The position numbers and the translations under genes are program-made. Shown one piece after another: positions 3,074 to 17,762 of a DNA stretch of 64,000 nt. The notes beneath the pieces were generated by a model. It made no database searches. It saw only the letters and a list, made by a program, of their open reading frames with translations, and had not been told where the DNA came from. The stretch is from NCBI GenBank assembly GCA_030655315.1, contig JAURVT010000002.1, forward strand, positions 124,001 to 188,000, read 5' to 3'. The stretch is from Nocardioidaceae bacterium (GTDB lineage: Bacteria > Actinomycetota > Actinomycetes > Propionibacteriales > Nocardioidaceae). How positions within the stretch are numbered: position 1 is the stretch's first letter; every line of letters begins with the position of its first letter.

Positions 3074-3805
3074 CTACGTCACGCCGCCGTCGACGGTCAG
3101 GACCTGCCCGGTGACGTAGGACGATGCGCTGCCCGCGAGGAACACCACCATCGCAGCGATGTCCGCCGGCGTCCCCAGGCGACGCGCCGGGATCTGCGCC
3201 ATCACCGCGTCGCCCACCTCACCGACGAAGACGTCACGGGTCTGGTCGGTCGCGATGAAACCGGGGGCGACCGCGTTGACCGTCACGCCGCGGTGGGCGT
3301 ACTCCCGGGCGAGTGCCCGGGTGAACCCGATGACCCCACCCTTGGAGGCAGCGTAGGCCGACGTGTGGGCCTCGCCCTTGGTCGCGGTGATGGACGCCAT
3401 CGAGATGACGCGCCCGTACCCGCGTGCCGTCATCAGGGTCCCGACCGCCTGGGTGCACCAGATCGTGCCGAGGAGGTTGACCCTGATGACCGCCTCGATC
3501 TCGTCGGACGTGAGGTGTCGCAGGGGCTTGTTCCGCAGAATGCCCGCATTGTTGACGAGGACCTCGACCGGCCCGTTCTCGGCTTCGATCGCGTCCACCA
3601 TCTCCTGCACGGCGCCGGCGTCCGACACGTCGCACGTCCTCATCGCCACGCCGTCGCGGGAGACCACCTCGCCGAGGTCGCACCCCACGACCTCGTGCCC
3701 GGCACGGGCCAGCGCATCGGCGACCTCCGCCCCGATGCCGCGCGCGGCACCGGTCACCAGCGCCACCCCCGGGACTGTGCTCGGTCTTTCTGGTGCTGTG
3801 CTCAT
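3074..3805 (-). CDS. SDR-family NAD(P)-dependent oxidoreductase (FabG-like)
   Basis: A 243-residue classical short-chain dehydrogenase. It has the cofactor motif TGAARGIG at residues 18-25, NNAG in the middle, a catalytic Ser in SMAS and a YAASK active-site Tyr/Lys, and ends ...TVDGG as FabG-type enzymes do. It probably oxidises or reduces a hydroxyl/keto group of an intermediate in the pathway encoded upstream. It is the last gene of the 11-gene operon and its start overlaps the stop of the acyl-CoA ligase gene by 4 bases, so translation is likely coupled. The association with an acyl-CoA ligase suggests a 3-hydroxyacyl-CoA or hydroxy-acid substrate, but this is inference. Confidence 0.9.
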   Translation of the reverse strand: MSTAPERPSTVPGVALVTGAARGIGAEVADALARAGHEVVGCDLGEVVSRDGVAMRTCDVSDAGAVQEMVDAIEAENGPVEVLVNNAGILRNKPLRHLTSDEIEAVIRVNLLGTIWCTQAVGTLMTARGYGRVISMASITATKGEAHTSAYAASKGGVIGFTRALAREYAHRGVTVNAVAPGFIATDQTRDVFVGEVGDAVMAQIPARRLGTPADIAAMVVFLAGSASSYVTGQVLTVDGGVT

Positions 3806-5400
3806 CGCTGGTCCTCACCGGTGTGCGTGCGGATCCTCCCCCGCCCCGACCCCGGGTCGGGATCGTTCAACCGAGCCTTGACGACCTTGCCCATGGCGTT
3901 GCGAGGCAGACCCGCGACCACCACGATCGTGCGGGGGATCTTGTAGTCCGCCAGCTTGTCGACGAGGAACCGTCCGACCGCTTCGGTGTCGAGGCCGGGA
4001 TCGGCCACGACGAAAGCCTTCAGGTCCTCGCCGAGGACCGCGTGCTCGATCCCGACGACCGCCGCCTCGTGGACCTCGGGGTGACTGGCCAGGACGGACT
4101 CGACCTCGACGGTGCTGACGTTGAAACCGCCGCGGATCACGCTGTCGGCCATGCGGTCCACGTAGAACAGGTACCCGTCGGCGTCACGTCTGCCCAGGTC
4201 GCCCGTGCGGAGCCACCCGTCCACGAGCGTCGTGGCCGTCTCCTCGGGGCGGCCGCGGTACCCGCGCATGACCGCCGGCGACCTCAGCTGGATCTCACCG
4301 GTCTCCTCGACGTCGGTCTCGACGCCGTCGGGGCGAGCCACCCGGAAGGTGGTCCAGGGACCGTTGCCCCGACCTCCGACGGACTCGGGCTTGTCGGCGA
4401 TGTCGTCCGGCCCGACCACCGTGCCACCCGGGCCGGCCTCGGTCTGCCCGTAGGAGTTGATCAACCCGCGACCGGGGAACGCCGCATGGATGCGCGCCAC
4501 GCCGTCGGCGGTCATCACCGAGCCACCGGTCACCAGGGTGCGCAGGGTGTCGGGGAGGTCGCTGAGGTCGACGTCCCGCAGGAGCAGCAGGTACATCGAG
4601 GGGACACCGAAGTAGATCGTCGTCCCGAACCTCCTCATCACCTCGATCGTGTCGTGCTGGTCGAAGCTCGGCTGGAGGACGAGGTGGGCGCCACCGCAGA
4701 GGGCTGCGAACGGATTGGTGTGTGCCCCGGTCGAGGAGAAGTACGGGACCGCCGACTGGTAGACGTCACCGGGGCGGACCCCGTAGGCGTGCACCAGCTC
4801 CAGGCCGCCGGCGACGCAGCTCGCGTGCGTGATCTCGACGCCCTTGGGGGTCCCGGAGGTGCCCGAGGTGTAGAGAAGGTCTGCCACGTCGTGCTCGCTC
4901 ACCGGTGCCCGCCGCCCCGGGACGAGGTCGCGCACCATCCGCACCAGTCCGTCCGAGAGGTCAAGCAACCGGGTGTCCAGACCGTCGATGGCCATCGACG
5001 CGACGCCACGCAGGTCACCGGCGGTGCACAGCACGCCGAGGTCCGCGTCGACCGCGACGGCTCGCAGCTCCCGTTCGGAGAACCTGGCGTTGACCGGCAC
5101 CACCACCCCGCCGCACCAGTGCACGGCGTGATGGAGCACGAGGGCCTCGAACCCGAACCGGTTGTCGAACTCCAGTCCGACCAACATGCCCGGTCGCACA
5201 CCGTGGGCACGGAGGAGCTCGGCCGCACGGCCGACCAGGTCGGGCAGCTCGCCGTAGGTGACGGTCCTGGTCCGCCCGTCGGCCGACGTCGCGGTGAGCC
5301 ACGGCTGCGAACCACGTCCGGCCGCGGCGTCGACGAGGTCGGCCATGGTCCGCCACGGCGCGGCGTCCGGGAGCGGGGGCATGGCGCTGGGCGTCGTCAT
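3802..5400 (-). CDS. AMP-dependent acyl-CoA synthetase/ligase
   Basis: A 532-residue member of the ANL superfamily, which adenylates a carboxylic acid and transfers it to CoA. The phosphate-binding loop TSGTSGTPKG is at residues 178-187. Then come YGQTEAGPGG, TGDLGRRD with the hinge, VIRGGFNVSTVEVE and the C-terminal catalytic Lys in AMGKVVKARL, so all the motifs for activity are present. Length is normal for the family. It overlaps the HAD gene upstream and the SDR gene downstream by 4 bases each. Its presence at the end of a sugar-kinase/transketolase operon is unusual and implies that the pathway yields, or the substrate carries, a carboxylic acid. The acid is not identifiable from sequence. 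Confidence 0.9.
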   Translation of the reverse strand: MTTPSAMPPLPDAAPWRTMADLVDAAAGRGSQPWLTATSADGRTRTVTYGELPDLVGRAAELLRAHGVRPGMLVGLEFDNRFGFEALVLHHAVHWCGGVVVPVNARFSERELRAVAVDADLGVLCTAGDLRGVASMAIDGLDTRLLDLSDGLVRMVRDLVPGRRAPVSEHDVADLLYTSGTSGTPKGVEITHASCVAGGLELVHAYGVRPGDVYQSAVPYFSSTGAHTNPFAALCGGAHLVLQPSFDQHDTIEVMRRFGTTIYFGVPSMYLLLLRDVDLSDLPDTLRTLVTGGSVMTADGVARIHAAFPGRGLINSYGQTEAGPGGTVVGPDDIADKPESVGGRGNGPWTTFRVARPDGVETDVEETGEIQLRSPAVMRGYRGRPEETATTLVDGWLRTGDLGRRDADGYLFYVDRMADSVIRGGFNVSTVEVESVLASHPEVHEAAVVGIEHAVLGEDLKAFVVADPGLDTEAVGRFLVDKLADYKIPRTIVVVAGLPRNAMGKVVKARLNDPDPGSGRGRIRTHTGEDQR

Positions 5401-6068
5401 GCCGGCCCGCCCGTGAGCAACCGGGCGAGATCGGCCGGCGTCGCCGCCACGTGGTCCGCGCCGGCCTCTCTCAGCGCCTCCCGACCGTAGTAGCCGTAGA
5501 GGACCGAGATGGTCGACGCACCGCAGGCGCGTCCCGACCTGGCGTCCTGCGGACCGTCGCCGACGTAGACCGTCTCAGCGGCACCGACCCCCGCGGTGGC
5601 GATCCCCAGGGCGACCGGAGCCGGGTGCGGCTTGCGCTCGACGGTGTCCTCGGCGCAGACGACGGCAGCCAACGATCCGGGCTCGATCCCCACCCAGGCG
5701 AGGTCGCGCTCCGCACGGGCCCGCCCCTTGTTGGTCACGATGCCCGTGACGACGCCTCTTCCTCGCAGCACGGCCAGCATGTCGAGGATGCCCGGGTAGG
5801 GGGTGACGAGCCGGTACGTGGTGTCGCGGTAGTGCCGGTCGTAGGCCTCGACGCAGTCGCCCGCACGGGGGCCGGCGACGTCCGTGCACACCTCCAGCAC
5901 CCGGGGTGTCAGGAAGCGCTCGGGATCGTCCTCGAGCTCGGGGAACTCCGTCCCCAGTACCTCGTCGAAAGCCGCGCGGTAGGCCGCGACGAGCGCAGGT
6001 CGGGAGTCGATGAGGGTGCCGTCCAGGTCGAACAGGACACATCGGGCCGCGGGGCCGGAGGCGCTCAC
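5397..6068 (-). CDS. HAD-superfamily phosphatase, phosphoglycolate phosphatase-like
   Basis: A 223-residue HAD hydrolase. Motif I is DLDGTLID with nucleophile Asp14 and Asp16. Motif II is VTNKGRA, motif III has the Lys of ERKPHP and motif IV is VGDGPQDARSG. The alpha-helical C1-type cap between motifs I and II resembles phosphoglycolate phosphatase (Gph). In this operon it probably dephosphorylates a small sugar-derived phosphate, such as a 2- to 4-carbon fragment left after transketolase action (inference). Stop/start overlaps of 4 bases join it to the phosphotriesterase-like gene upstream and the acyl-CoA ligase gene downstream. Confidence 0.85.
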   Translation of the reverse strand: MSASGPAARCVLFDLDGTLIDSRPALVAAYRAAFDEVLGTEFPELEDDPERFLTPRVLEVCTDVAGPRAGDCVEAYDRHYRDTTYRLVTPYPGILDMLAVLRGRGVVTGIVTNKGRARAERDLAWVGIEPGSLAAVVCAEDTVERKPHPAPVALGIATAGVGAAETVYVGDGPQDARSGRACGASTISVLYGYYGREALREAGADHVAATPADLARLLTGGPA

Positions 6069-6988
6069 GACGTGGCCTCAACCGGTTCGAACGCGAAGAA
6101 GCGCGCGGGGTTGCGGACCAGCACCAGATCGGCGATCTCGTCGCCCAACCGGCCTCGGACGGTCTCGAGGATGCCGGAGAAGCCCGGCCCTCCCCCGTGG
6201 GCGAGCTGGTAGGACGGCCGTCCGAGGTCGCCCGACACCATGATCCGGTCGTGGCCTGCCTCCAGGAGACCTCGTACCTGGGCGACTCGATCATCGTCCT
6301 CGGCGTACTTGGACTTGGTCCAGTGATCGAAGCCCAGCCAGGCTCCGCCCTGGGCCATGGCTCGGAGGTACCCGGGGTCCAGGTTCCGGTCGACGTGCCC
6401 GATGAGCACCGAGGCGGGCGGGACACCGGCGTCGACGAACCGCTCGAGCTGGACGTCGCCGAGGGTCCCCGCCTGGGTGTGGGTGGAGATCGGCGCTCCG
6501 CTGGCGAGGTGCGCGGAGGCGACCGCCGACAGGACCGCGCCCTCGTCGTCGCGGATGCGATCAGTGCGGCAGGTGCCGAACTTGATGACGCCGGCACGGG
6601 CCCGCGTGCCGTCCATCCCGACGGAGACGTCCTCGACCATGCGGGACGCGAGGTCCTCGACCGGCGTCTCGTGCAGGCCGTCGGGGTAGTAGATGCCCTT
6701 CTGGTAGCCCGTCGCCGCGACGACGCGGACGTCCGACCGCTCGGCGACACCGAGCAGGGCCGCGGCATCACGGCCGTAGTCGGTCGTGGTCATCTCGACG
6801 AGCGCACCACCCCCGGCAGCGGCGTAGGTGTCCAGCTCGGTCGCCGCCTTGTCGGGATCGGACAGCAGCAGGTCGGCGTCCACCTCGAGGGCCCATTGCG
6901 GTGGGCGCGTCAGCAGGTGCTCGTGGCACAGGGTGATGCCGAGCGACGACGCGCTGACGTCGCCGGTCATGGTTCGGACGATGCTCAC
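6065..6988 (-). CDS. Phosphotriesterase-family metal-dependent hydrolase (probable lactonase)
   Basis: A 307-residue amidohydrolase-superfamily protein of the phosphotriesterase-homology type. The binuclear metal ligands appear complete: HEH near residue 22, the bridging Lys in AGVIKFGT, His in ISTHTQ, His in IGHVDR and the catalytic Asp in MVSGDLGR. Characterised bacterial members of this family in sugar operons hydrolyse sugar lactones or lactone phosphates, not organophosphates. With a neighbouring kinase and dehydrogenase, a lactonase role is the most economical reading. The substrate is unknown. It overlaps the FGGY kinase gene (upstream) and the HAD gene (downstream) by 4 bases. Confidence 0.85.
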   Translation of the reverse strand: MSIVRTMTGDVSASSLGITLCHEHLLTRPPQWALEVDADLLLSDPDKAATELDTYAAAGGGALVEMTTTDYGRDAAALLGVAERSDVRVVAATGYQKGIYYPDGLHETPVEDLASRMVEDVSVGMDGTRARAGVIKFGTCRTDRIRDDEGAVLSAVASAHLASGAPISTHTQAGTLGDVQLERFVDAGVPPASVLIGHVDRNLDPGYLRAMAQGGAWLGFDHWTKSKYAEDDDRVAQVRGLLEAGHDRIMVSGDLGRPSYQLAHGGGPGFSGILETVRGRLGDEIADLVLVRNPARFFAFEPVEATS

Positions 6989-8532
6989 GCAAGGCGCCTT
7001 TCGGAGTCGAGGAACGCGGCCCGAGCCCGCCAGAGCTCGGTGAAGCTCTCGCGCAGCCGCTGGTAGTCCGCGTAGCCGCGGTCGTAGGTCGGGCGGAGGG
7101 AGTGGTCCGGGTGCTGGGTCGAGCCGTTCCGCACGAGCCGGGCGATGCCGTCGGCGTAGTCGCGGAACCGTCCGGCGCCCACCCCGGCGGCGAGCGCGGC
7201 TCCCACCGCTCCGGACTCCTCCACCTGAGGGACGGCGAGCTCACGGCCGAGCACGTCGGCGCAGATCTGGCGCCACAGGGGGCTGCGCGCCCCTCCCCCC
7301 GTCATCCGGATCTCGTGGATGTCGACCGGCATGGCCGCGTAGCACTCGCGCATCGAGAAGGCGACGCCCTCGAGCACCGCACGCAGCACGTGGTGCCCGG
7401 ACGTCGTGGCGCTCAACCCGCTGAAGCTGCCTCGCGCCCAGGGGTCCACGAAGGGGGCGGTGGACCCGGCGGTGCTGAGGAAGGGGAGGAACGTGACCCC
7501 GGCAGCGAGCGGCGGGACCCCGGCGACGGGTCCCTCGACGAGGTCCTTGAGCGTCGTCTCGCCGGACCTCACCCGCGCCGCGTCGTCCCCGCACAGCGTC
7601 TCGAGGCACCAGTCCAGGCCGAGCGTCCCACCCCCGGTGTTGCACAGCAGACGCTGCCACCGCCCCTCGGGCATCAGGTAGGTGAAGCCCACTCCGGCGG
7701 GCTCGAGCACGGCCTCGTCGGTGGTGACGACGTTCATGAGGCTGGTGCCGATGACAGTCGCGGCCTGTCCCGGCCGGTGCGCACCGACTCCCAGCGCGTT
7801 GGCGACCGCGTCCCCGAGCCCTGCGACCACGGGCGTGCCCTCCGGCAGTCCCGTCCACCTCGACGCCTCCGCGGTCACGCGTCCGACGACGGTCTCGCTG
7901 GTCACCGCCGTGGGGAGCAGCCCCGCGAGCTCGGGCACCCCCATCAGGTCGAACAGCTCCGTCGACGGCGCTCGACGACGGATGTCGCAGGGCACGAAGG
8001 AGAGGTCCGACTCGTCCGTCGCGATCTGGCCGGTGAGGCGGTAGTTGACGTAGTCCTTCGCGAGGAAGACGGTCCGCAGGCGGCTGGCCCGTGCGGGCTC
8101 GTGCCGCACCATCCAGGCGTAGAGCACCGAGGGCATGCCGGCGATCAGGGCGTTCCCGCCGATCTCGAAGAAGCGCTCAGCCAGGCCCTGCGTGTCCCAC
8201 TCGTGGAGCAGGTCCACTGCTCGGCTGTCGGGCCACCCGATGGCCGGGCCCACCGGGTGACCGTCCGAGTCCAGGCCCCACAGGCCGCCCATGTGGCCAC
8301 AGACGCCGACCGCGACGACCTCGTCGCCGTGCTCCAGGGAGCTCAGGGACTCGGCGATCGTCTCTGCCACGCAGGCCCAGGTGGTGTCCATGTCCTCCTC
8401 GTGCCGACCGGCGCCGCCGTCGAGCGTGGGAGTGCGCCTCGTGGACGTCCCCACCACCGTTCCGTCGTCGGCGTCGAGGACGACGGTCTTGACCGCCGAC
8501 GTCCCCTTGTCGATCCCGACCAAGACCTTCAC
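6985..8532 (-). CDS. FGGY-family carbohydrate kinase (xylulose/erythritol kinase-like)
   Basis: A 515-residue two-domain sugar kinase. It starts at GTG 8532, where VKVLVGIDKGTSAVK supplies the phosphate-1 loop. The upstream frame stays open but overlaps two other genes and has no kinase homology. Other marks are GHMGGLW and GWPDSR in the first domain, GTSLMNVV, the C-terminal signature GVTFLPFLSTAG with DPWARGSFSGL, and the ATP-binding GGGARSPLWRQI. The pattern around the C-terminal signature is closer to L-xylulose or erythritol kinases than to XylB. It presumably phosphorylates the ketose produced by the zinc dehydrogenase encoded upstream. It overlaps by 4 bases the start of an unusual FGGY C-terminal-like gene upstream. 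Confidence 0.9.
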   Translation of the reverse strand: MKVLVGIDKGTSAVKTVVLDADDGTVVGTSTRRTPTLDGGAGRHEEDMDTTWACVAETIAESLSSLEHGDEVVAVGVCGHMGGLWGLDSDGHPVGPAIGWPDSRAVDLLHEWDTQGLAERFFEIGGNALIAGMPSVLYAWMVRHEPARASRLRTVFLAKDYVNYRLTGQIATDESDLSFVPCDIRRRAPSTELFDLMGVPELAGLLPTAVTSETVVGRVTAEASRWTGLPEGTPVVAGLGDAVANALGVGAHRPGQAATVIGTSLMNVVTTDEAVLEPAGVGFTYLMPEGRWQRLLCNTGGGTLGLDWCLETLCGDDAARVRSGETTLKDLVEGPVAGVPPLAAGVTFLPFLSTAGSTAPFVDPWARGSFSGLSATTSGHHVLRAVLEGVAFSMRECYAAMPVDIHEIRMTGGGARSPLWRQICADVLGRELAVPQVEESGAVGAALAAGVGAGRFRDYADGIARLVRNGSTQHPDHSLRPTYDRGYADYQRLRESFTELWRARAAFLDSERRLA

Positions 8533-9077
8533 GGTCGGACCGCCCGTCCCTCGATGGTGTCGATGCACTGCCGGTACAGGGCGTGCAGTGCCGCGTGCGA
8601 CGCGATGCCTCGTGCGGTCGGTTGGTCGGTGCCGTCCTCGGAGGCGACGGCGACGCCGACGGCCTTGGCCAGCAGCTCGCGCCACAGCGCACCGGAGGCA
8701 TCGCGAGTGACGAGCCGGATGGACGCCGGACGCACGCCGTGGTCGTCCATCACGGTGACAGCCGCATGGATCAGCCCCTCGAAGACCGCGCGGGCGCACT
8801 CGGCCAGCCTCGTCTGGTAGGTCATGCCGAAGAACGTCCCGCCTCCCTCCGTGGGGACGAAGAGCACCCCGGTGCTGCCGTCGGCGACGCTGGCGGCAGC
8901 GGCATCGAGCTGGGCGAACGGTGCGTCGTCCGCGCCCGCCCACGTCGCGCAGAAGGTCTCCCGGAACCACCGGACCGTCGACAGTCCGGGGCCCAGCACC
9001 AGCACGGAACCGTCCTGGCGCTGCAGGCTCAGCTCGTCGCCGACCTCGACCACGACCGCGGCCTCGTTCCCGCTCAC
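8529..9077 (-). CDS. Stand-alone degenerate FGGY kinase C-terminal domain protein
   Basis: A 182-residue protein that aligns by eye with only the C-terminal half of the FGGY kinase encoded next to it. Matching segments are GLSTVRWFRETFC (kinase: GTLGLDWCLETLC), GVLFVPTEGGGTFFG (GVTFLPFL...GSFSGL), ARAVFEGLIHAAVTVM (LRAVLEGVAFSMREC) and ASIRLVTRDASGALWRELLAKAVG (HEIRMTGGGARSPLWRQICADVLG). The ATP-binding GGGARS is replaced by TRDASG, and the sugar-binding N-terminal domain is absent, so kinase activity alone is unlikely. It may be a regulatory or structural partner of the full kinase, or a decaying duplicate. The intact frame and 4-base overlaps on both sides argue that it is still translated. 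Confidence 0.75.
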   Translation of the reverse strand: MSGNEAAVVVEVGDELSLQRQDGSVLVLGPGLSTVRWFRETFCATWAGADDAPFAQLDAAAASVADGSTGVLFVPTEGGGTFFGMTYQTRLAECARAVFEGLIHAAVTVMDDHGVRPASIRLVTRDASGALWRELLAKAVGVAVASEDGTDQPTARGIASHAALHALYRQCIDTIEGRAVRP

Positions 9078-10087
9078 CGCTCGGTCCTCGGATCGAGCAG
9101 CACCTTGGTGTACTCGCCCGCACGGTGCCGGCGGTAGACCTCGGTGATGTCCGACAGCGGCTCGACGGCCGTGATGAGCGGCGCCAGCTCGACGTGGGCC
9201 AGCATGGCGACCGCGCGCGGGAACACGTGGGCGGTCGCGTAGGCCGATCGCACCACCAGCTCCCGCGCGTAGAGCAGGTGGGGGCTCACGGCCAGACGGG
9301 TCGCCGGAGCATGCACGGCGATGACGACCAGACGGCCACGCGTGGCCAGCAGGCCGAGCGCCTCCTCGGTGGCGGTCGCCGCGCCGGCGGCGTCGTACAC
9401 GACGTCGAACCCGCGACGACGTCCCACGCCCTTGGCGTAGGCATGCAGGTCCGTCACCCGCGGGTCCACGGCCACGTCAGCCCCGAGGCTCGTGGCGAGG
9501 TCGCGCTTGGCCGGGTCCAGCTCGCTGACCACGACGAGACCTGCTCCGGCGCGACGGGCGAGCTGCGCGGTCAGCAGCCCCATGGTTCCACCCCCGATCA
9601 CCAGGACGTTCTCGCCCGAGCGCAGCTCACCCTGCTCCAGGGCGTACAGGCACGTGGCGAGAGGCTCGAGCAGGGCACCCTCCCGGGTCGACACCCCCTC
9701 GGGGAGCCTGAACACCTGCGACGCCTTGTAGGTCGCGAGCTCGGCGAATCCACTGGCTCCGTAGAACTTGCGGCGGCACATGTTGGGCTGGCCGTCGGAG
9801 CACCACGCGCACGACCCGCACGGGGCGTAGAAGTTGCACGCGACGCGGTCGCCCACGGCGATGTCGTCGACGTCCTCACCCACGGCCTCGACCACGCCGG
9901 AGACCTCGTGCCCGAGCACCTGCGGCGGGGGCCCGACCGCGAGCGTGCCCTCGATGATGTGCGGGTCCGACCCGCACATGCCGCAGAAGTGGATGCGTAC
10001 CGTCACCTCGTCCGAGGCCATGGTCGGCTCGGCCCACTCGCGGTACTCCAGGATCCCGGGACCGGTCCACACGCCGGCTCTCATCAT
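9074..10087 (-). CDS. Zinc-dependent alcohol/polyol dehydrogenase (MDR family)
   Basis: A 337-residue medium-chain dehydrogenase of the sorbitol/threonine dehydrogenase type. The catalytic zinc ligands are the Cys of CGMCGSD and the His-Glu of GHEVSG. The structural zinc Cys cluster is in CGSCAWCSDGQPNMC. The Rossmann motif is VIGGGTMGLLTAQLA. The start was placed at ATG 10087 because AGGAG lies 6 bases upstream; ATG 10084 is equally possible, and a longer frame to 10147 lacks homology. It likely oxidises a polyol or secondary alcohol to the ketose phosphorylated by the FGGY kinase. A 44-base gap separates it from the transporter ATPase gene, and its stop overlaps the FGGY-fragment gene by 4 bases. 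Confidence 0.9.
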   Translation of the reverse strand: MMRAGVWTGPGILEYREWAEPTMASDEVTVRIHFCGMCGSDPHIIEGTLAVGPPPQVLGHEVSGVVEAVGEDVDDIAVGDRVACNFYAPCGSCAWCSDGQPNMCRRKFYGASGFAELATYKASQVFRLPEGVSTREGALLEPLATCLYALEQGELRSGENVLVIGGGTMGLLTAQLARRAGAGLVVVSELDPAKRDLATSLGADVAVDPRVTDLHAYAKGVGRRRGFDVVYDAAGAATATEEALGLLATRGRLVVIAVHAPATRLAVSPHLLYARELVVRSAYATAHVFPRAVAMLAHVELAPLITAVEPLSDITEVYRRHRAGEYTKVLLDPRTER

Positions 10088-10131
10088 CTTCTGCTCCTGT
10101 CGGTCGAGCGGGATCTCATCCCTACGTGCGT

Positions 10132-10858
10132 TCAGAACAGCTCCCACCAGTCGTCTCGTGCGGCAGCCTCGGCACCCGTCTCGGAGAGCAGGATCTCCCC
10201 GGTGCGCAGGTAGTAGACGTGGTCGGCGATGGGTAGAGCGGCACGCACGTTCTGCTCGACGAGCACGACGGAGATCCCGGCGGTGCGGGTCAGCTCCCGG
10301 ATGGTCGCGAAAAGCTCCTGGACCAGGCTCGGCGCGATGCCCAGCGAAGGCTCGTCCAGCAGCAGCAGCTCCGATCCGCTCATCAGCGCGAGGCCGATCG
10401 ACAGCAGGCGCTGCTGCCCGCCGCTCAGCCGCCCGGCGACCTGGTTCCCGCGGTCGCCGAGGATGGGGAAGAGTCCGTGCACCTGACCCAGCCGCTCGGC
10501 CCGGACGGCGGGGTCTCGCACCGTGAAGGCGCCCAGCTCGAGGTTCTGGCGCACCGTCAGGTCGCGGAAGATCGAGCCCGTGGCCGGGGTGTAGGAGATA
10601 CCGCCCAGGACCCGTGCGGACGTCGAGGACCGGGAGATGTCCCGTCCCTCGTGCGTGACGGTCCCGGCGTCGAGATCGACGAGTCCGAACAGGGCCTTCA
10701 GCACGGTCGTCTTGCCCGCCCCATTGTGCCCCAGGATGGTGACGACCTCACCGACTCCCACGCTCAGGGAGACGTCGTGGAGCACGCTGCGCTTGCCGTA
10801 CCCACAGACGAGGTTGCTCGCGACCAGGCGGTCGCGTGCGGTGGTCGAGGTGCGCTCT

Positions 10859-10869
<11 letters not shown>
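10132..10869 (-). CDS. LivF-type ABC transporter ATP-binding protein
   Basis: A 245-residue nucleotide-binding subunit of a branched-chain-amino-acid-type (HAAT) importer. It has Walker A GHNGAGKTT, signature RLSGGQQRLLSIGLAL, Walker B LLLLDEPSLGI and the H-loop region VVLVEQNV. The likely start is TTG 10869 (leader MEPEERTS), overlapping the end of the LivM-LivG fusion gene by 11 bases. It pairs with the LivG domain of that fusion to form the two ATPase sites. The family usually handles amino acids, amides or short acids; here the neighbours are sugar-kinase-type enzymes, so the cargo is uncertain. Confidence 0.9.
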
Positions 10870-12655
<1,786 letters not shown>

Positions 12656-12662
12656 GTGACTC

Positions 12663-13559
12663 CTAAGCCGCGATCTTGCCGAACAGGCCCTGCGGCCGCA
12701 CGATCAGGAAGACGAACAGCAGTCCGAAGATGACTGCTGTCTGGAAGGTCTGCGCGAGCCACAGACCGCTCAGGCTGACGACCATCCCGAGGACCAGACC
12801 AGCGAACGGCGCACCCTTCTGGCTCCCCACCCCGCCCAGGAAGGTCGCGATGAAGCCGAGCAGCACGGGCTGCAGACCGATGTTCGGGGTGGCCGACTGG
12901 TTCAGCAGGAACAGGACCGCCGCCACACCCACCAGGAACGAGCCGACGCCGAAGACGTAGACGTGGACTCTCTGGGGAGATATCCCCACGGCGGACGCCA
13001 GTTCCCGGTTGGCGCTCACGGCGATCGAGGCCAGTCCCCATCGAGAGCGTCGCATCGCCAGCACGCCTCCGATCAGCGCCCAGGAGACGACGACCGTGAG
13101 GACGTCCCAGGTCGTGAAGGTCGCCGTGCCCAGGGTGAACAACCGCGGGTCGCCGGCCGGGAAGCCGCGGCCGTCGGGTCCGAACATGATCTGGATCAGG
13201 TTCGGACCGGCGATGGACAGCCCGAGGGAGGCCAGGAAGATTCCCAGCGAGTCCGCCCCCGATCGACGCATCGGCCGGTACACGACGAGCTCGATACCGA
13301 CGCCGAGCACGACGGCCACCAGGAGCCCCGCCGCGATGGCCACCGCGAGGGGCAGCCCCAGGGAGCTGGCCGTCGCCAGCGCGACGTAGGCGGCCGCGGT
13401 GTAGACGAAGGCGTGCGCGAAGTGGAACACCTTGGTCGTCGAGTAGATGGTGCTGACGCTGGTGCCCAGCAGGGCGTAGGTGGACCCGAGGACGATGCCG
13501 CTGACCAGGAGCTGGAGGAACAGCGACGGCGACACGTCGGAGGCGGTGAGCAGGGGCAA
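12663..13559 (-). CDS. LivH-type ABC transporter permease
   Basis: Second permease of the HAAT-type importer, about 298 residues with eight or so hydrophobic segments. Typical LivH wording is LLVSGIVLGSTYALLGTSVSTIYSTTKVFHFAHAF near the start and PQGLFGK at the end. I chose TTG at 13559 because it follows a GAGG element and begins just past the stop of the binding-protein gene. A GTG at 13601 in the same frame would overlap that gene by 35 bases and add 14 residues that do not look like LivH. It ends a few bases before the start of the LivM-LivG fusion gene. Confidence 0.88.
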   Translation of the reverse strand: MPLLTASDVSPSLFLQLLVSGIVLGSTYALLGTSVSTIYSTTKVFHFAHAFVYTAAAYVALATASSLGLPLAVAIAAGLLVAVVLGVGIELVVYRPMRRSGADSLGIFLASLGLSIAGPNLIQIMFGPDGRGFPAGDPRLFTLGTATFTTWDVLTVVVSWALIGGVLAMRRSRWGLASIAVSANRELASAVGISPQRVHVYVFGVGSFLVGVAAVLFLLNQSATPNIGLQPVLLGFIATFLGGVGSQKGAPFAGLVLGMVVSLSGLWLAQTFQTAVIFGLLFVFLIVRPQGLFGKIAA

Positions 13560-13566
13560 GGTCAGC

Positions 13567-14886
13567 TCATCCCTCGGAGACGCCGGAGGCCGGGTCGCCA
13601 CCCTCAGGGACCTCGGTGATGGTCGCCACCTGGGTCAGCTTGCAGTCGCTGATCGTGTAGACGCCCATGGGCTTGACCGGAAGGTGGGTCTTCTCGTCGA
13701 TCGACATCGTGCCGACCTCGTCGGCCGTGCCGCCGTAGACGGACTTGAAGGTCGTGTCCGCCTCGAGAGCCTTCTGCAGCTGCTCACCGCTCGTGGTGTC
13801 GCCGTCGTCGGCGATGACTCGCTTGACGAGCTCCCAGAAGACGAACATCTCCTCGTAGTAGTTGGCGGCGAAGATGTCGGGGTTCTTGCCGTACGCGGCG
13901 TTGTACTCCTCCACGAACTGCGCGTTGAACGGGTTGGGGTTCGCGGGGTCGTAGTTCTCGCCCAGCGCGATCACCGTGTCGAACTCCTTCGGCGCCAGCT
14001 TGCACACCTCTTCGCCACCGGTCTCGGACGAGACCACCGGAGCGGTGACGCCGGCACGCCGCAACGCCTTCATGAACGTCGCGTTGTCGCCGCCCTGCTC
14101 GAAGATCCAGATCACGTCGGGTCGGGCTGACTGGAGCTTGGCGATGATCTGACCGAAGTCCTTGATTCCGACCTCGTGCTGCTCGTTGGCCACGACGGTG
14201 CCCCCGTCGGCCACGGTGGGCCAGATGGTCGGGATGAGCTCCTTCTGCGCGTTGATGCCGTTCTCCAGCGTGCCGACGACCGCCATCCTCTTCGCGTCCG
14301 GGTACTCCTGAGCGACCCACGCAAGGCCCCCGGGAATGCTCGGGTCGGCGAACAGCTGGCGGGTGTTCCACAGGTAGTCCTTGCCGATCTGGCCCGGGCT
14401 CGTGCCACCGCCCTGCAGGGTCAGGACCTTGTTCTGCTGGACCAGGGGGATGATCGCCTCGGAGACCCCGCCGAACGAGGTCTGCAGGACGTTGATGCCC
14501 TCCTGGCTGATCAGCTTGCGCGCGGCGGCCACGGCGGCGGGGACGCTGCCGCTCTCGTGGTCACCGATGGAGATCTCGAAGTCGGGACCGCAAGCGGCCT
14601 GGATCTGCTTGGCGGCCAGCTCGGCGCCCTGGCTCATGACCTCGCCGTAGGACGATCCCGAGCCGGTCATCGCGAGGAGCATGCCGACCTTGACGGTCTG
14701 GCCCTGACCGGCCGGCTTCCCACCGTCGCCGAAGTAGGTGTTGATGGCGGTGTCGCCCGAGCATGCCGCGGACGCTCCCGAGTCCGACGACCCACCACAC
14801 GCCGTCAGACCGATGGAGGTCAGGGCCACCGCGCCGACCAGGGCGGAGATCCGTCGGAGCCGGCTGCTGCGGGCGGTTGCTGTCAT
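13567..14886 (-). CDS. Branched-chain-type ABC transporter substrate-binding lipoprotein
   Basis: A 439-residue periplasmic-binding-fold protein of the LivJ/LivK (type I) family. The lipobox LTAC places the lipidated Cys at residue 30 after a positively charged, hydrophobic signal. The mature part opens VKVGMLLAMTGSGSSYG, a usual ligand-binding start for the family. ATG 14886 was preferred over ATG 14895 because AAGGA sits at proper spacing only for the former. It is the first gene of the 11-gene operon. The promoter carries the TCCGGATTCCGGA palindrome overlapping a GATAAT-like -10 box. The ligand is unknown; the neighbouring enzymes suggest something other than leucine or valine. Confidence 0.92.
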   Translation of the reverse strand: MTATARSSRLRRISALVGAVALTSIGLTACGGSSDSGASAACSGDTAINTYFGDGGKPAGQGQTVKVGMLLAMTGSGSSYGEVMSQGAELAAKQIQAACGPDFEISIGDHESGSVPAAVAAARKLISQEGINVLQTSFGGVSEAIIPLVQQNKVLTLQGGGTSPGQIGKDYLWNTRQLFADPSIPGGLAWVAQEYPDAKRMAVVGTLENGINAQKELIPTIWPTVADGGTVVANEQHEVGIKDFGQIIAKLQSARPDVIWIFEQGGDNATFMKALRRAGVTAPVVSSETGGEEVCKLAPKEFDTVIALGENYDPANPNPFNAQFVEEYNAAYGKNPDIFAANYYEEMFVFWELVKRVIADDGDTTSGEQLQKALEADTTFKSVYGGTADEVGTMSIDEKTHLPVKPMGVYTISDCKLTQVATITEVPEGGDPASGVSEG

Positions 14887-14925
14887 GGCGTCCATCCTTC
14901 GAGGAAGTGCTCTCGTCGTGTATTA

Positions 14926-14938
14926 TCCGGATTCCGGA
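14926..14938. promoter_or_regulatory. Putative IclR operator 1, upstream of the importer operon
   Basis: TCCGGATTCCGGA, a 13-base palindrome of two self-complementary TCCGGA boxes around one base. The identical 13-mer occurs at 17775-17787 before the transketolase genes. On the operon strand it abuts GATAATAC, a good -10 candidate, so a bound regulator would block initiation. It also lies in the divergent region shared with the IclR gene at 15048. A further TTCCGG half-site is at 14945-14950. Assignment to the IclR protein is inference from position. Confidence 0.6.
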
Positions 14939-15047
14939 CTCACGTTCCGGTGCACGGACAGCATCACGTGACCTGAGACACGTTGTCAAGCACTCGCCGA
15001 TGAGTCCGTGAGCGTGCACAGCGAAGGGAAAACGGCAGGATGCAACC

Positions 15048-15842
15048 ATGACCGGACCCACGTGGCCGACCATCGACCCGAAGAACCACGTCGCGTCCGT
15101 GGTCAAGGCGATCAGCCTGCTCGAGCTGTTCACCAGCGAGCAGCCCGAGCTCAACCTCGCGACCCTCGTCGAACGCGGCGGGCTCACCCGCACGACCACC
15201 CACCGCCTCCTCGCGACGCTCGAGCTGGTCGGCTGGCTCGAGCGCAGAGGTGAGAACTACCGCCTCTCGCTGCGGGTGTTCCGCCTCGGCTCGACCGCCG
15301 TCGGGGCCATGGAGCTGCGGCACGAGGCCAGCCACGTCATGTCCGAGCTGGCTGCCAAGTTCGGCGAGGACGTCTACCTCGTGGTCCCGGACGGTCCTCG
15401 CGCCGTGTGCCTCGAACGCATCGAGGGCCGCTCCCCCGTCCACGTGATGGCCCTCGACGTCGGCAAGTCGCTGCCCCTGTTCATCGGCGGCGGCGGCGTG
15501 GCGCTCCTCGCCGAGAAGGAGGCCGAGCTGCTGCCGCTGGTCCTCGCCGAGGGCGAGATGATCACTCCGACCGGCGCGCGCATCACGCTCGAGCAGATGC
15601 AGGACAAGCTCGCCCAGACGCGTGCCCGTGGCTACTCCATCAGCATGGAGGACGTGACCGTCGGCGTCGGAGCGCTGGGGTCCGTGGTGCGCGACTCACG
15701 CGGCACCGCCGTCGCCGCCATCAGCCTCGGGGGCCTGCTGCACAAGCTCGCGCCACCGCGTCAGGACGAGCTCGCGGCGGGCGTCCGAGCGGCAGCGGAC
15801 GAGATCTCGGCGCGCCTGGGCCACCGCCCGTCTCGGCCCTGA
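15048..15842 (+). CDS. IclR-family transcriptional regulator
   Basis: A 264-residue regulator. The N-terminal winged helix is at about residues 15-75 (VVKAISLLELF, LTRTTTHRLLATLELVGWLER), followed by the IclR effector domain with GGGGVALLA and GYSISMEDVTVGVGALGSVVRD. It stands divergent from the importer operon with about 160 bases between start codons, and tail-to-tail with the transketolase pair. It is the only intact regulator in the island, so it is the likely controller of both minus-strand units through the TCCGGATTCCGGA sites. IclR proteins typically sense a small organic acid or sugar-derived ligand. The ATG start has AGGA upstream. Confidence 0.92.
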   Translation: MTGPTWPTIDPKNHVASVVKAISLLELFTSEQPELNLATLVERGGLTRTTTHRLLATLELVGWLERRGENYRLSLRVFRLGSTAVGAMELRHEASHVMSELAAKFGEDVYLVVPDGPRAVCLERIEGRSPVHVMALDVGKSLPLFIGGGGVALLAEKEAELLPLVLAEGEMITPTGARITLEQMQDKLAQTRARGYSISMEDVTVGVGALGSVVRDSRGTAVAAISLGGLLHKLAPPRQDELAAGVRAAADEISARLGHRPSRP

Positions 15843-15855
15843 CCCGCCGGCCGCC

Positions 15856-16854
15856 TCAGCTGCCCAGGAGCGCGCGGGCCCGGGTGGCGATGCCGGCCGG
15901 GTCGAGCCCGTAGTGCCGCCACAGGTGGGTCGGAGGGCCGATGAGCGCGTACTCGTCCTGGATCCCGTGGCGCCTGAATCTCGTCGAGCCACCCGATTCG
16001 GCGATCACCTCGGCCACCGCGCTCCCCAGACCACCCATCACGTTGTGGTCCTCGACCGTCAGGATCCCTCCGGTCTCCGACATGGCCGCCAGCACGCCGT
16101 CGACGTCGAACGGCTTGAGCCACAGCGCATCCAGCACGCGGACCTCGATGCCCTCGGCCGCCAGCAGCCCTGCTGCTCCCACGGCTCCTTGCACGCCGAT
16201 GCCGGTCGCGATGATGGTCAGGTCCACGCCCTCGCGGACCAGCTGGAACCTGCCTCTGGACACCTCGGGCGGCGAGTCGTAGATGGGCTTCTCCCGGCCA
16301 CGCCCCATGCGGACGTACACCGGCCCGGGTTCGTCGACGGTGGCGCGCAGCAGTGCCCGGGTGGATGCCGCGTCGCTCGGGGCCACGACGGTCAGCCCGG
16401 CAATAGCGCGAGTGATGGCGATGTCCTCGGTCGCGTGGTGCGAGGTGCCGTAGAAGCCGAAGCTGATGCCCGAGTGATGACCGAGCACACGGACCTTCAT
16501 CTGCGGATAGGCCAGGTCCGTGCGGATCTGCTCCGCGCACATCAGGGCGGCGAAGGAGGCGAACGTCGAGATGTAGGGGACGAACCCGGCGCTGGCGAGA
16601 CCGGCCGCGACCGAGGTCATGTTCTGCTCGGCGATCCCGAGGTCGACGAAGCGGTCGGGATGCCGGTGCTGGAAGTCGTTCGTCCGGTTGGACGTCGCCA
16701 GGTCGGCCGTCAGCACCATGATGTCGTCCCGGTCGTCGGCCATGTCGGCCAGCTCCTCACCGTGGACGAACGAGTACATCAGCGGCAGCGAGGTCTCCAT
16801 GTTCCAGGACCTGGCGTCCCGCAGCCCCGGGCGCGGATCGGTCGTCTCGGTCAT
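15856..16854 (-). CDS. Split transketolase, C-terminal subunit
   Basis: A 332-residue protein corresponding to the pyrimidine-binding and C-terminal domains of transketolase. It carries the conserved Glu in DLGIAEQNMTSVAAGLA, then LGHHSGISFGFYGTSHHATEDIA, VRMGRGREKPIYD and a final Rossmann-like domain with VEDHNVMGGLGSAVAEVIAE. The start ATG 16854 overlaps the stop of the N-terminal subunit gene by 4 bases, so the two halves are translationally coupled. Such paired transketolases are known for sugar substrates such as apulose 4-phosphate and sulfo-sugar phosphates. Which ketose phosphate is used here cannot be told from the sequence. Confidence 0.92.
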   Translation of the reverse strand: MTETTDPRPGLRDARSWNMETSLPLMYSFVHGEELADMADDRDDIMVLTADLATSNRTNDFQHRHPDRFVDLGIAEQNMTSVAAGLASAGFVPYISTFASFAALMCAEQIRTDLAYPQMKVRVLGHHSGISFGFYGTSHHATEDIAITRAIAGLTVVAPSDAASTRALLRATVDEPGPVYVRMGRGREKPIYDSPPEVSRGRFQLVREGVDLTIIATGIGVQGAVGAAGLLAAEGIEVRVLDALWLKPFDVDGVLAAMSETGGILTVEDHNVMGGLGSAVAEVIAESGGSTRFRRHGIQDEYALIGPPTHLWRHYGLDPAGIATRARALLGS

Positions 16855-17762
16855 CGTGAACCTCCCGGCACCGAGGTACCCGCTTCCATGCGTGCGGTGA
16901 TCTCGGCCTCCGCGTCGGCGCGGTCCACCTCGCCGAGGTAGCCCAGGTGCCAGTGCAGTGACAGGTCCATGAACGACACGCCGGCGCCCTTGCGCGTGTG
17001 CGCCAGCACGCACGTCGGCACCGACGAGTCGGTCGCGGGCAGCGCGTCCAGGGCCTCGATGACGCTGCTCGGATCGTGACCGTCGATCTCGGTGACGGCC
17101 CACCCGAACGCGCGCCACTTGTCGACGATGGGCTCGACCGGCATCACGGCCGAGACCGACCCGTCCAGGCACATCTGGTTCTCGTCGACGATCACGGTGA
17201 GGTTGCCCAGGTCGAACGCCGCGGCGCTCATCGCGGCCTCCCAGACCTGCCCTTCATTGAGCTCACCGTCGCCGATCATGACCACGGTGCGGAAGTCGCG
17301 GCACTGCTTGCGCGCCGCGAGCGCCATGCCCACCCCCACGGACAGGTTGTGGCCGATGGAACCCGAGCTGAAGTCGATGCCGGGGATCTTCCTCATGTCG
17401 GGGTGATCACCGAATCGGCTGCCCACGCGCGCGTAGTCCGCGAGCCAGTCGTCAGGGAAGAAGCCCAGGTCCGCGAGCATCGGGTAGACACCGATGGCCG
17501 CGTGACCCTTGCCGAGCAGGAATCGATCACGGTCGGCCCACTGCGGGTCCTTCGGATCGAGCCGCAGCGCGCGATAGTAGAGCGCTGCGAAGATCTCCGC
17601 GCAGGAGAAGACGCTCGAGTAGTGCCCGCTGCCCGCGATCTCGACGAGCTCCACCGTCTTCAGGCGGACCCAGTCCGCCCGCCACGCCAGGCCTTGGGCG
17701 GTCAGGACACGACCTCGGTCCAGGCGGGAGCTTGTCGTCTCCGGCGGCGATGTCGAACTCAC
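16851..17762 (-). CDS. Split transketolase, N-terminal (thiamine diphosphate-binding) subunit
   Basis: A 303-residue protein equal to the first domain of transketolase. The thiamine diphosphate/Mg motif runs from GDGELNEG at residues 164-171 to NQ at 195-196. GKGHAA and SGSIGHNLSVGVGMALA are also typical. It starts at GTG 17762 with AAGGAG 4 bases upstream and forms a two-gene unit with the C-terminal subunit gene. The leader is very short, with two operator-like palindromes around the -10 region. It would transfer a two-carbon ketol unit from the kinase product, linking the island to the pentose phosphate pathway (inference). Confidence 0.92.
   Translation of the reverse strand: MSSTSPPETTSSRLDRGRVLTAQGLAWRADWVRLKTVELVEIAGSGHYSSVFSCAEIFAALYYRALRLDPKDPQWADRDRFLLGKGHAAIGVYPMLADLGFFPDDWLADYARVGSRFGDHPDMRKIPGIDFSSGSIGHNLSVGVGMALAARKQCRDFRTVVMIGDGELNEGQVWEAAMSAAAFDLGNLTVIVDENQMCLDGSVSAVMPVEPIVDKWRAFGWAVTEIDGHDPSSVIEALDALPATDSSVPTCVLAHTRKGAGVSFMDLSLHWHLGYLGEVDRADAEAEITARMEAGTSVPGGSR

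Follow-up and report, generated by a model that had tools for sequence, protein, structure and literature searches.

Can a single domain of a sugar kinase, encoded on its own and without its nucleotide motif, serve the complete kinase that is encoded beside it? FGGY kinases have been described as enzymes that are self-contained and consist of two domains, and lone-domain proteins of the class considered here are commonly dismissed in annotation as truncated fragments. In the window, by which we mean the whole 64,000-nucleotide stretch of Nocardioidaceae DNA that was analysed, a gene for such a protein (SMALL) lies directly upstream of a full FGGY kinase gene (KIN). We conclude that SMALL is probably a non-catalytic partner of KIN and not a broken leftover, and that here a known domain has taken on a conserved role that is new and probably non-catalytic.

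The locus and its relatives

The features of the locus are collected in Table 1; from the transporter to the short-chain dehydrogenase, the genes form a tightly packed operon. Window positions 3074-17762 form a catabolic locus (FGGY kinase, lactonase-like hydrolase, HAD phosphatase, split transketolase, IclR regulator) that is kept across three actinobacterial families.

Table 1. Features of the SMALL-KIN locus in window coordinates
Feature	Position	Strand	Remark
Short-chain dehydrogenase and acyl-CoA-ligase-like gene	3074..5400	-	operon end
HAD phosphatase (HAD)	5397..6068	-	directly after PTE in 7/7 loci
Phosphotriesterase-family (lactonase-like) hydrolase (PTE)	6065..6988	-	directly after KIN in 7/7 loci
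KIN, complete FGGY kinase with both domains and its catalytic motifs	6985..8532	-	Pfam/NCBIfam and motif check
SMALL, 182-aa stand-alone FGGY_C-like domain	8529..9077	-	GTG start, TGA stop
Degenerate adenosine-motif counterpart VTRDASGALW in SMALL	8682..8711	-	aligned to KIN TGGGARSPLW
Strand G80-T89 (GTFFGMTYQT) of SMALL, codons	8811..8840	-	ranks among the most conserved stretches; glycerol kinase FGGY_C dimer-contact pattern
Zinc alcohol dehydrogenase, between LivF and SMALL	9074..10147	-	
Branched-chain-type ABC transporter: ATPase, fused permease-ATPase, permease, binding protein	10132..14895	-	operon start
IclR regulator, divergent	15048..15842	+	present in 7/7 loci
Split transketolase (N and C halves), beyond IclR	15856..17762	-	same neighbourhood in 7/7 loci

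The reading frame of SMALL is intact and overlaps each neighbour by four bases, as had been noted earlier (9074-9077 with the dehydrogenase, 8529-8532 with KIN, the latter junction reading GTGA). The gene is single-copy in its own genome.

Loci with KIN form a small set of seven from three families, with a KIN identity of at least 49%: the window, two Herbiconiux loci (L026, L027) and four loci of a genus referred to here as g99 (L072, L078, L079, L080). The constant genes of these loci are the IclR regulator, the small gene, KIN, PTE, HAD, the short-chain dehydrogenase and transketolase. The transporter type varies, being ABC in the window and in Herbiconiux and MFS in L072, and the zinc dehydrogenase was missed by tblastn in both Herbiconiux loci and in all four g99 loci, so that the SMALL-KIN pair persists despite a swap of the transporter and the gain or absence of a dehydrogenase. 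The zinc dehydrogenase fits exactly between the stop of the transporter ATPase and SMALL in the window (9074-10147) and is missing from the Herbiconiux loci (7450-7468), with reading frames that look seamless at the junction in both. A transporter permease and ATPase are fused into 598 residues (window 10859-12655), and the fusion is also found in Herbiconiux.

All seven KIN proteins possess the motifs DKGTS, the GxGD aspartate, GTS and TGGGARS, which we take to have their usual roles in this kinase. At the position of GERxP, the usual loop of FGGY kinases, all seven carry TAG[AS]TAPF, which may be a marker of the substrate or the partner of this kinase clade.

Domain identity and predicted fold

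The earlier note had read SMALL as a lone FGGY C-terminal domain that aligned with only the C-terminal half of KIN, had TRDASG in place of GGGARS, and was devoid of the sugar-binding domain. The assignment is borne out by the Pfam FGGY_C profile (PF02782), which matches SMALL with 27.6 bits at a gathering cut-off of 27 (E 3e-6), covering profile positions 98-196 of 198; the two Herbiconiux orthologues reach 24.5 and 26.6 bits, both under the cut-off. Pfam gave no FGGY_N match, and a chain of only 182 residues departs from the canonical FGGY_N plus FGGY_C architecture of these kinases (for domain limits see PMC4880283). The homology to the C-terminal half of KIN is genuine, if distant (29% over 73 residues, E 8e-5 in a single comparison). 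The earlier description has to be amended in one point: SMALL makes up a complete domain II and not a piece of that half.

The loss of the nucleotide motif is evident from the alignment with KIN (Table 1). A GGGxxS-type adenosine-binding motif is absent, its place being taken by VTRDASG in the window and by GPRAGN in Herbiconiux; furthermore, the GERxP-type loop is about 11 columns shorter than in KIN and the GTS stretch is unrecognisable. Because both the ATP motif and the sugar-binding domain are lost, SMALL should be unable to phosphorylate by itself. The best curated match (NCBIfam) is the xylulokinase XylB / PRK15027, TIGR01312, with 41.7 bits over 88 residues; this is far under the equivalog cut-off of 912 bits, and SMALL alone should not be an enzyme.

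A profile of three SMALL orthologues matched E. coli xylulose kinase (2itm, E 1.4e-6) and LsrK (5ya0, E 0.0011) in the PDB. AlphaFold2 modelling from the three orthologues only resulted in a pLDDT of 60.5, and all 50 of the 50 matches of this model listed by VIA are FGGY kinases (Z 7.1-10.3). Inclusion of the C-domains of three KIN orthologues in the alignment raised pLDDT to 85.3, with a pTM of 0.85, and the best VIA match among those listed was domain II of the xylulose kinase 3ifr (Z 20.3, 176 residues, 3.3 A). While one must keep in mind that the kinase rows might steer this second model, the order of elements is nearly identical in the kinase-free model, except that strand 72-83 is unformed there. 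The models argue well for SMALL being an entire FGGY domain II with an actin-like (RNase H-like) fold, predicted to run from the first strand to the last helix of the kinase domain.

Co-occurrence with the kinase

A scan with KIN of genome_contigs, which holds one genome each for 84,980 species, returned three loci, two in Herbiconiux with 72% identity and one, with 22%, that encodes an unrelated kinase. With a limit of E 1e-85, KIN was found in two of 394 genomes of the class (the genome of the window and one of genus g99, G539) and in 4/37 genomes of g99, and at E 1e-60 in two of 16 Herbiconiux genomes. The question whether the small gene always accompanies the kinase can be answered in the affirmative for this set: an intact small gene lies directly upstream of KIN in all seven loci, and no KIN orthologue was found without one. 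The refuting case named in the earlier note, a homologous locus with the gene absent or broken, thus did not turn up among them. The stop and start overlap by four bases in three loci (window and Herbiconiux) and by eight bases in the four g99 loci, if the start candidate nearest to the stop of the small gene is taken. In both Herbiconiux loci SMALL is intact, shares 48-50% identity with its counterpart in the window (50-51% by tblastn), and is flanked by the gene of the transporter ATPase on one side and by KIN on the other.

The reverse search gives the same picture. Among the 16 Herbiconiux genomes, strong matches to the SMALL profile (E < 1e-100) occur only in the two that have KIN; two further genomes gave weak matches (4.0e-9 and 2.1e-8) in kinase-sized frames of 513 and 503 residues. 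A profile of the g99 small genes matched in exactly the four of 37 g99 genomes having KIN. Searches with the single SMALL protein found nothing close in genome_contigs, in viral_contigs or in 293 other genomes of the family, and in the class sample only matches within long open frames of full-length-kinase size. Thirteen matches at 1e-8 in 398 genomes of the family of Herbiconiux consist of one known Herbiconiux gene and 12 in frames of 499-866 residues; six matches in 391 genomes of the order are the window's own and others in frames of 506-783 residues. The neighbourhoods of more distant kinases (L049-L064) were scanned by tblastn only, and absence of a small gene cannot be claimed for them because tblastn with SMALL missed even the g99 homologue. 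SMALL is thus linked in every one of these loci to the same, presumably active, homologue, as would be expected of a pseudoenzyme subunit, and the coupling proposed by the earlier note stands at the level of co-inheritance, gene order and overlapping frames.

The four g99 small proteins deserve separate consideration. They are 170-186 residues long, with 51-71% identity to the first of them and 20-23% to SMALL of the window. Pairwise BLASTP gave an E of 0.001, and hhalign of the SMALL profile against the g99 profile a probability of 82% (E 1e-5). When the four were mixed with 10,000 shuffles and scored with an HMM of the three close SMALL sequences they took ranks 1, 3, 5 and 10, which is supportive but not decisive alone; the hhalign comparison is the better argument. 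The one g99 protein submitted to Pfam gave no match, nor did the g99 profile find one in the PDB. Judging from the scores together with the identical position, there is good though not conclusive reason to regard the g99 genes as diverged homologues of SMALL.

Selection and conservation pattern

SMALL is under purifying selection, as had been supposed: dN/dS between the two Herbiconiux species is 0.176 (NG86). The same calculation gave 0.134 for KIN, 0.106 for LivF and 0.184 for PTE, where the L027 stretch extends a few codons past the stop. In third-position GC, SMALL (0.90) is on a par with the neighbouring genes (0.90-0.93).

The conservation of SMALL is reversed relative to KIN, in that a strand is near-invariant and the ATP motif drifts. 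In the three close genomes, strand 80-89 has nine of 10 sites invariant in SMALL and four of 10 in KIN, and the adenosine motif shows the opposite (4/10 in SMALL, 9/10 in KIN). The corresponding counts in the four g99 loci, which were made on an alignment already seen and after the idea had formed, are 9/10 for the strand and 5/10 for the motif counterpart in the small genes compared to 7 and 10 in the kinases. Across all seven small proteins, nine of the 16 invariant residues fall within the block G80-A105. The strand is not alone in this: 84 of the 182 SMALL sites are invariant among the three close sequences, and other ten-residue stretches in helix 2, adjoining the strand, equal it in conservation.

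Origin of the small gene

Nothing in its sequence relationships marks SMALL as an obvious copy of KIN of recent date. The matches from the plasmid collection are annotated as xylulokinase or unannotated, the best being enteric xylulokinases (39.6% over 88 residues). A recent duplication of KIN as its source is unsupported by the tree, where a very long branch carries SMALL and falls outside the clade of KIN, but the AU test is compatible with a grouping of SMALL with KIN (p 0.344), with tandem kinase B (0.465) and with tandem kinase A (0.361).

Head-to-tail pairs of FGGY kinases occur in other actinobacterial loci (L050, L059, L060, L061, L062), and their existence makes an origin of SMALL from a tandem pair attractive, the upstream kinase having been reduced to its C domain. 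In a tree of 53 rows, from which the downstream copy of L062 was left out, upstream and downstream tandem kinases form separate clades (100/100 each). KIN appears as a weakly supported neighbour of these clades and groups weakly with the upstream kinases, so that the tandem-pair origin is no more than a candidate. The tandem kinases are possibly another paired-kinase system.

Possible role of SMALL

As its motifs are intact, KIN should be active alone. With these motifs invariant in all seven loci, KIN would hardly need SMALL to complete it, and a regulating or stabilising role of SMALL is more likely. We regard it as an evenly balanced proposal that SMALL serves KIN as a dedicated accessory subunit without catalysis of its own, docking via FGGY_C.

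A hint towards a mechanistic aspect arises from the conserved strand. Chaetomium (fungal) glycerol kinase is reported to be dimeric via its C-terminal domains, with an interface described as "mostly mediated by beta-strands", and the contacts named in that account include Gly436, Thr437, Leu438, Phe439, Gly440, Ile441 and Thr445 (PMC7765489). The residues G80, T81, F82, F83, G84, M85 and T89 of SMALL have the same spacing; this match to the one glycerol kinase paper is by residue pattern, not by superposition, and was noticed after the conservation. By this analogy SMALL would most likely dock on the FGGY_C domain of KIN itself through the edge strand GTFFGMTYQT. A KIN-SMALL heteromer would then replace, or compete with, a putative KIN homodimer, and SMALL might set the oligomeric state, the stability or the domain closure of KIN. 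Against docking on the C-domain counts that HPr, a known protein regulator of the FGGY kinase LsrK, binds the N-terminal and not the C-terminal domain in the complex described in PMC10223898. The more specific proposal of a heteromeric FGGY kinase, in which an ATP-dead FGGY_C would bind one kinase clade at its C-domain dimer surface as an obligate regulatory subunit and control assembly or closure, is tentative, and we rate it slightly below an even chance.

The wholesale preservation of SMALL could also fit a different role. The entire fold and the 84 invariant sites exceed the needs of one interface strand, and PTE and HAD are linked to SMALL as constantly as KIN is, so the protein might act in the pathway on its own, as a scaffold or by binding a metabolite, with a new ligand or with a partner such as PTE or HAD. 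We consider this unlikely: SMALL overlaps KIN and not PTE, it lies immediately upstream of KIN in all seven loci, and where an FGGY-kinase-derived domain is encoded beside an FGGY kinase, pairing of the two is the simplest assumption.

Far less probable is a half-enzyme in which SMALL, instead of regulating, shares or swaps domains with KIN, so that its domain II would form part of a joint active site; FGGY active sites do sit between the two domains, as stated in PMC3245297, and in SMALL domain II is complete, but KIN has an intact domain II of its own with GTS and TGGGARS in 7/7 proteins, and the adenosine motif of SMALL is lost and unconserved. Equally improbable, and close to refuted, is that SMALL is what is left of a second kinase in decay, or an ORF whose sole use is translational coupling to KIN: it is short, motif-poor and faster evolving than its neighbours (50% identity compared to 72% for KIN), and tandem kinases exist elsewhere, but decay is contradicted by the intact frames in all seven loci and by dN/dS, and the conserved block G80-A105 and the high-confidence fold speak against this reading as well.

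Comparison with known systems

Searches of the open-licence PMC literature for a lone FGGY domain, an FGGY pseudokinase, a heterodimer or a regulatory subunit yielded no title describing such a kinase partner, and searches on the pathway and on xylulose kinase dimers found no papers. Zhang et al. 2011 (PMC3245297) briefly note single-domain FGGY_C proteins, which they excluded from their study. Like SMALL, these proteins have one FGGY domain, and the passage concerned gives them no function, context or conservation.

With the FGGY_C family (PF02782) SMALL agrees in fold and in sequence over the domain; it differs in having no FGGY_N in the chain, in the loss of GTS and TGGGARS, and in the deletion of the GERxP-type loop. 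With the autoinducer-2 kinase LsrK it shares the helix RWFR...FCA. LsrK is a two-domain kinase, unlike SMALL, and HPr, which regulates it, bears no relation to SMALL.

Pseudoenzyme partners are known from protein kinases. If the proposed partnership of SMALL and KIN is true, FGGY sugar kinases too have acquired such partners, in the form of a nucleotide-dead domain co-inherited with one kinase clade in three families, and the two proteins would provide a small system for direct tests of regulation by a lone domain.
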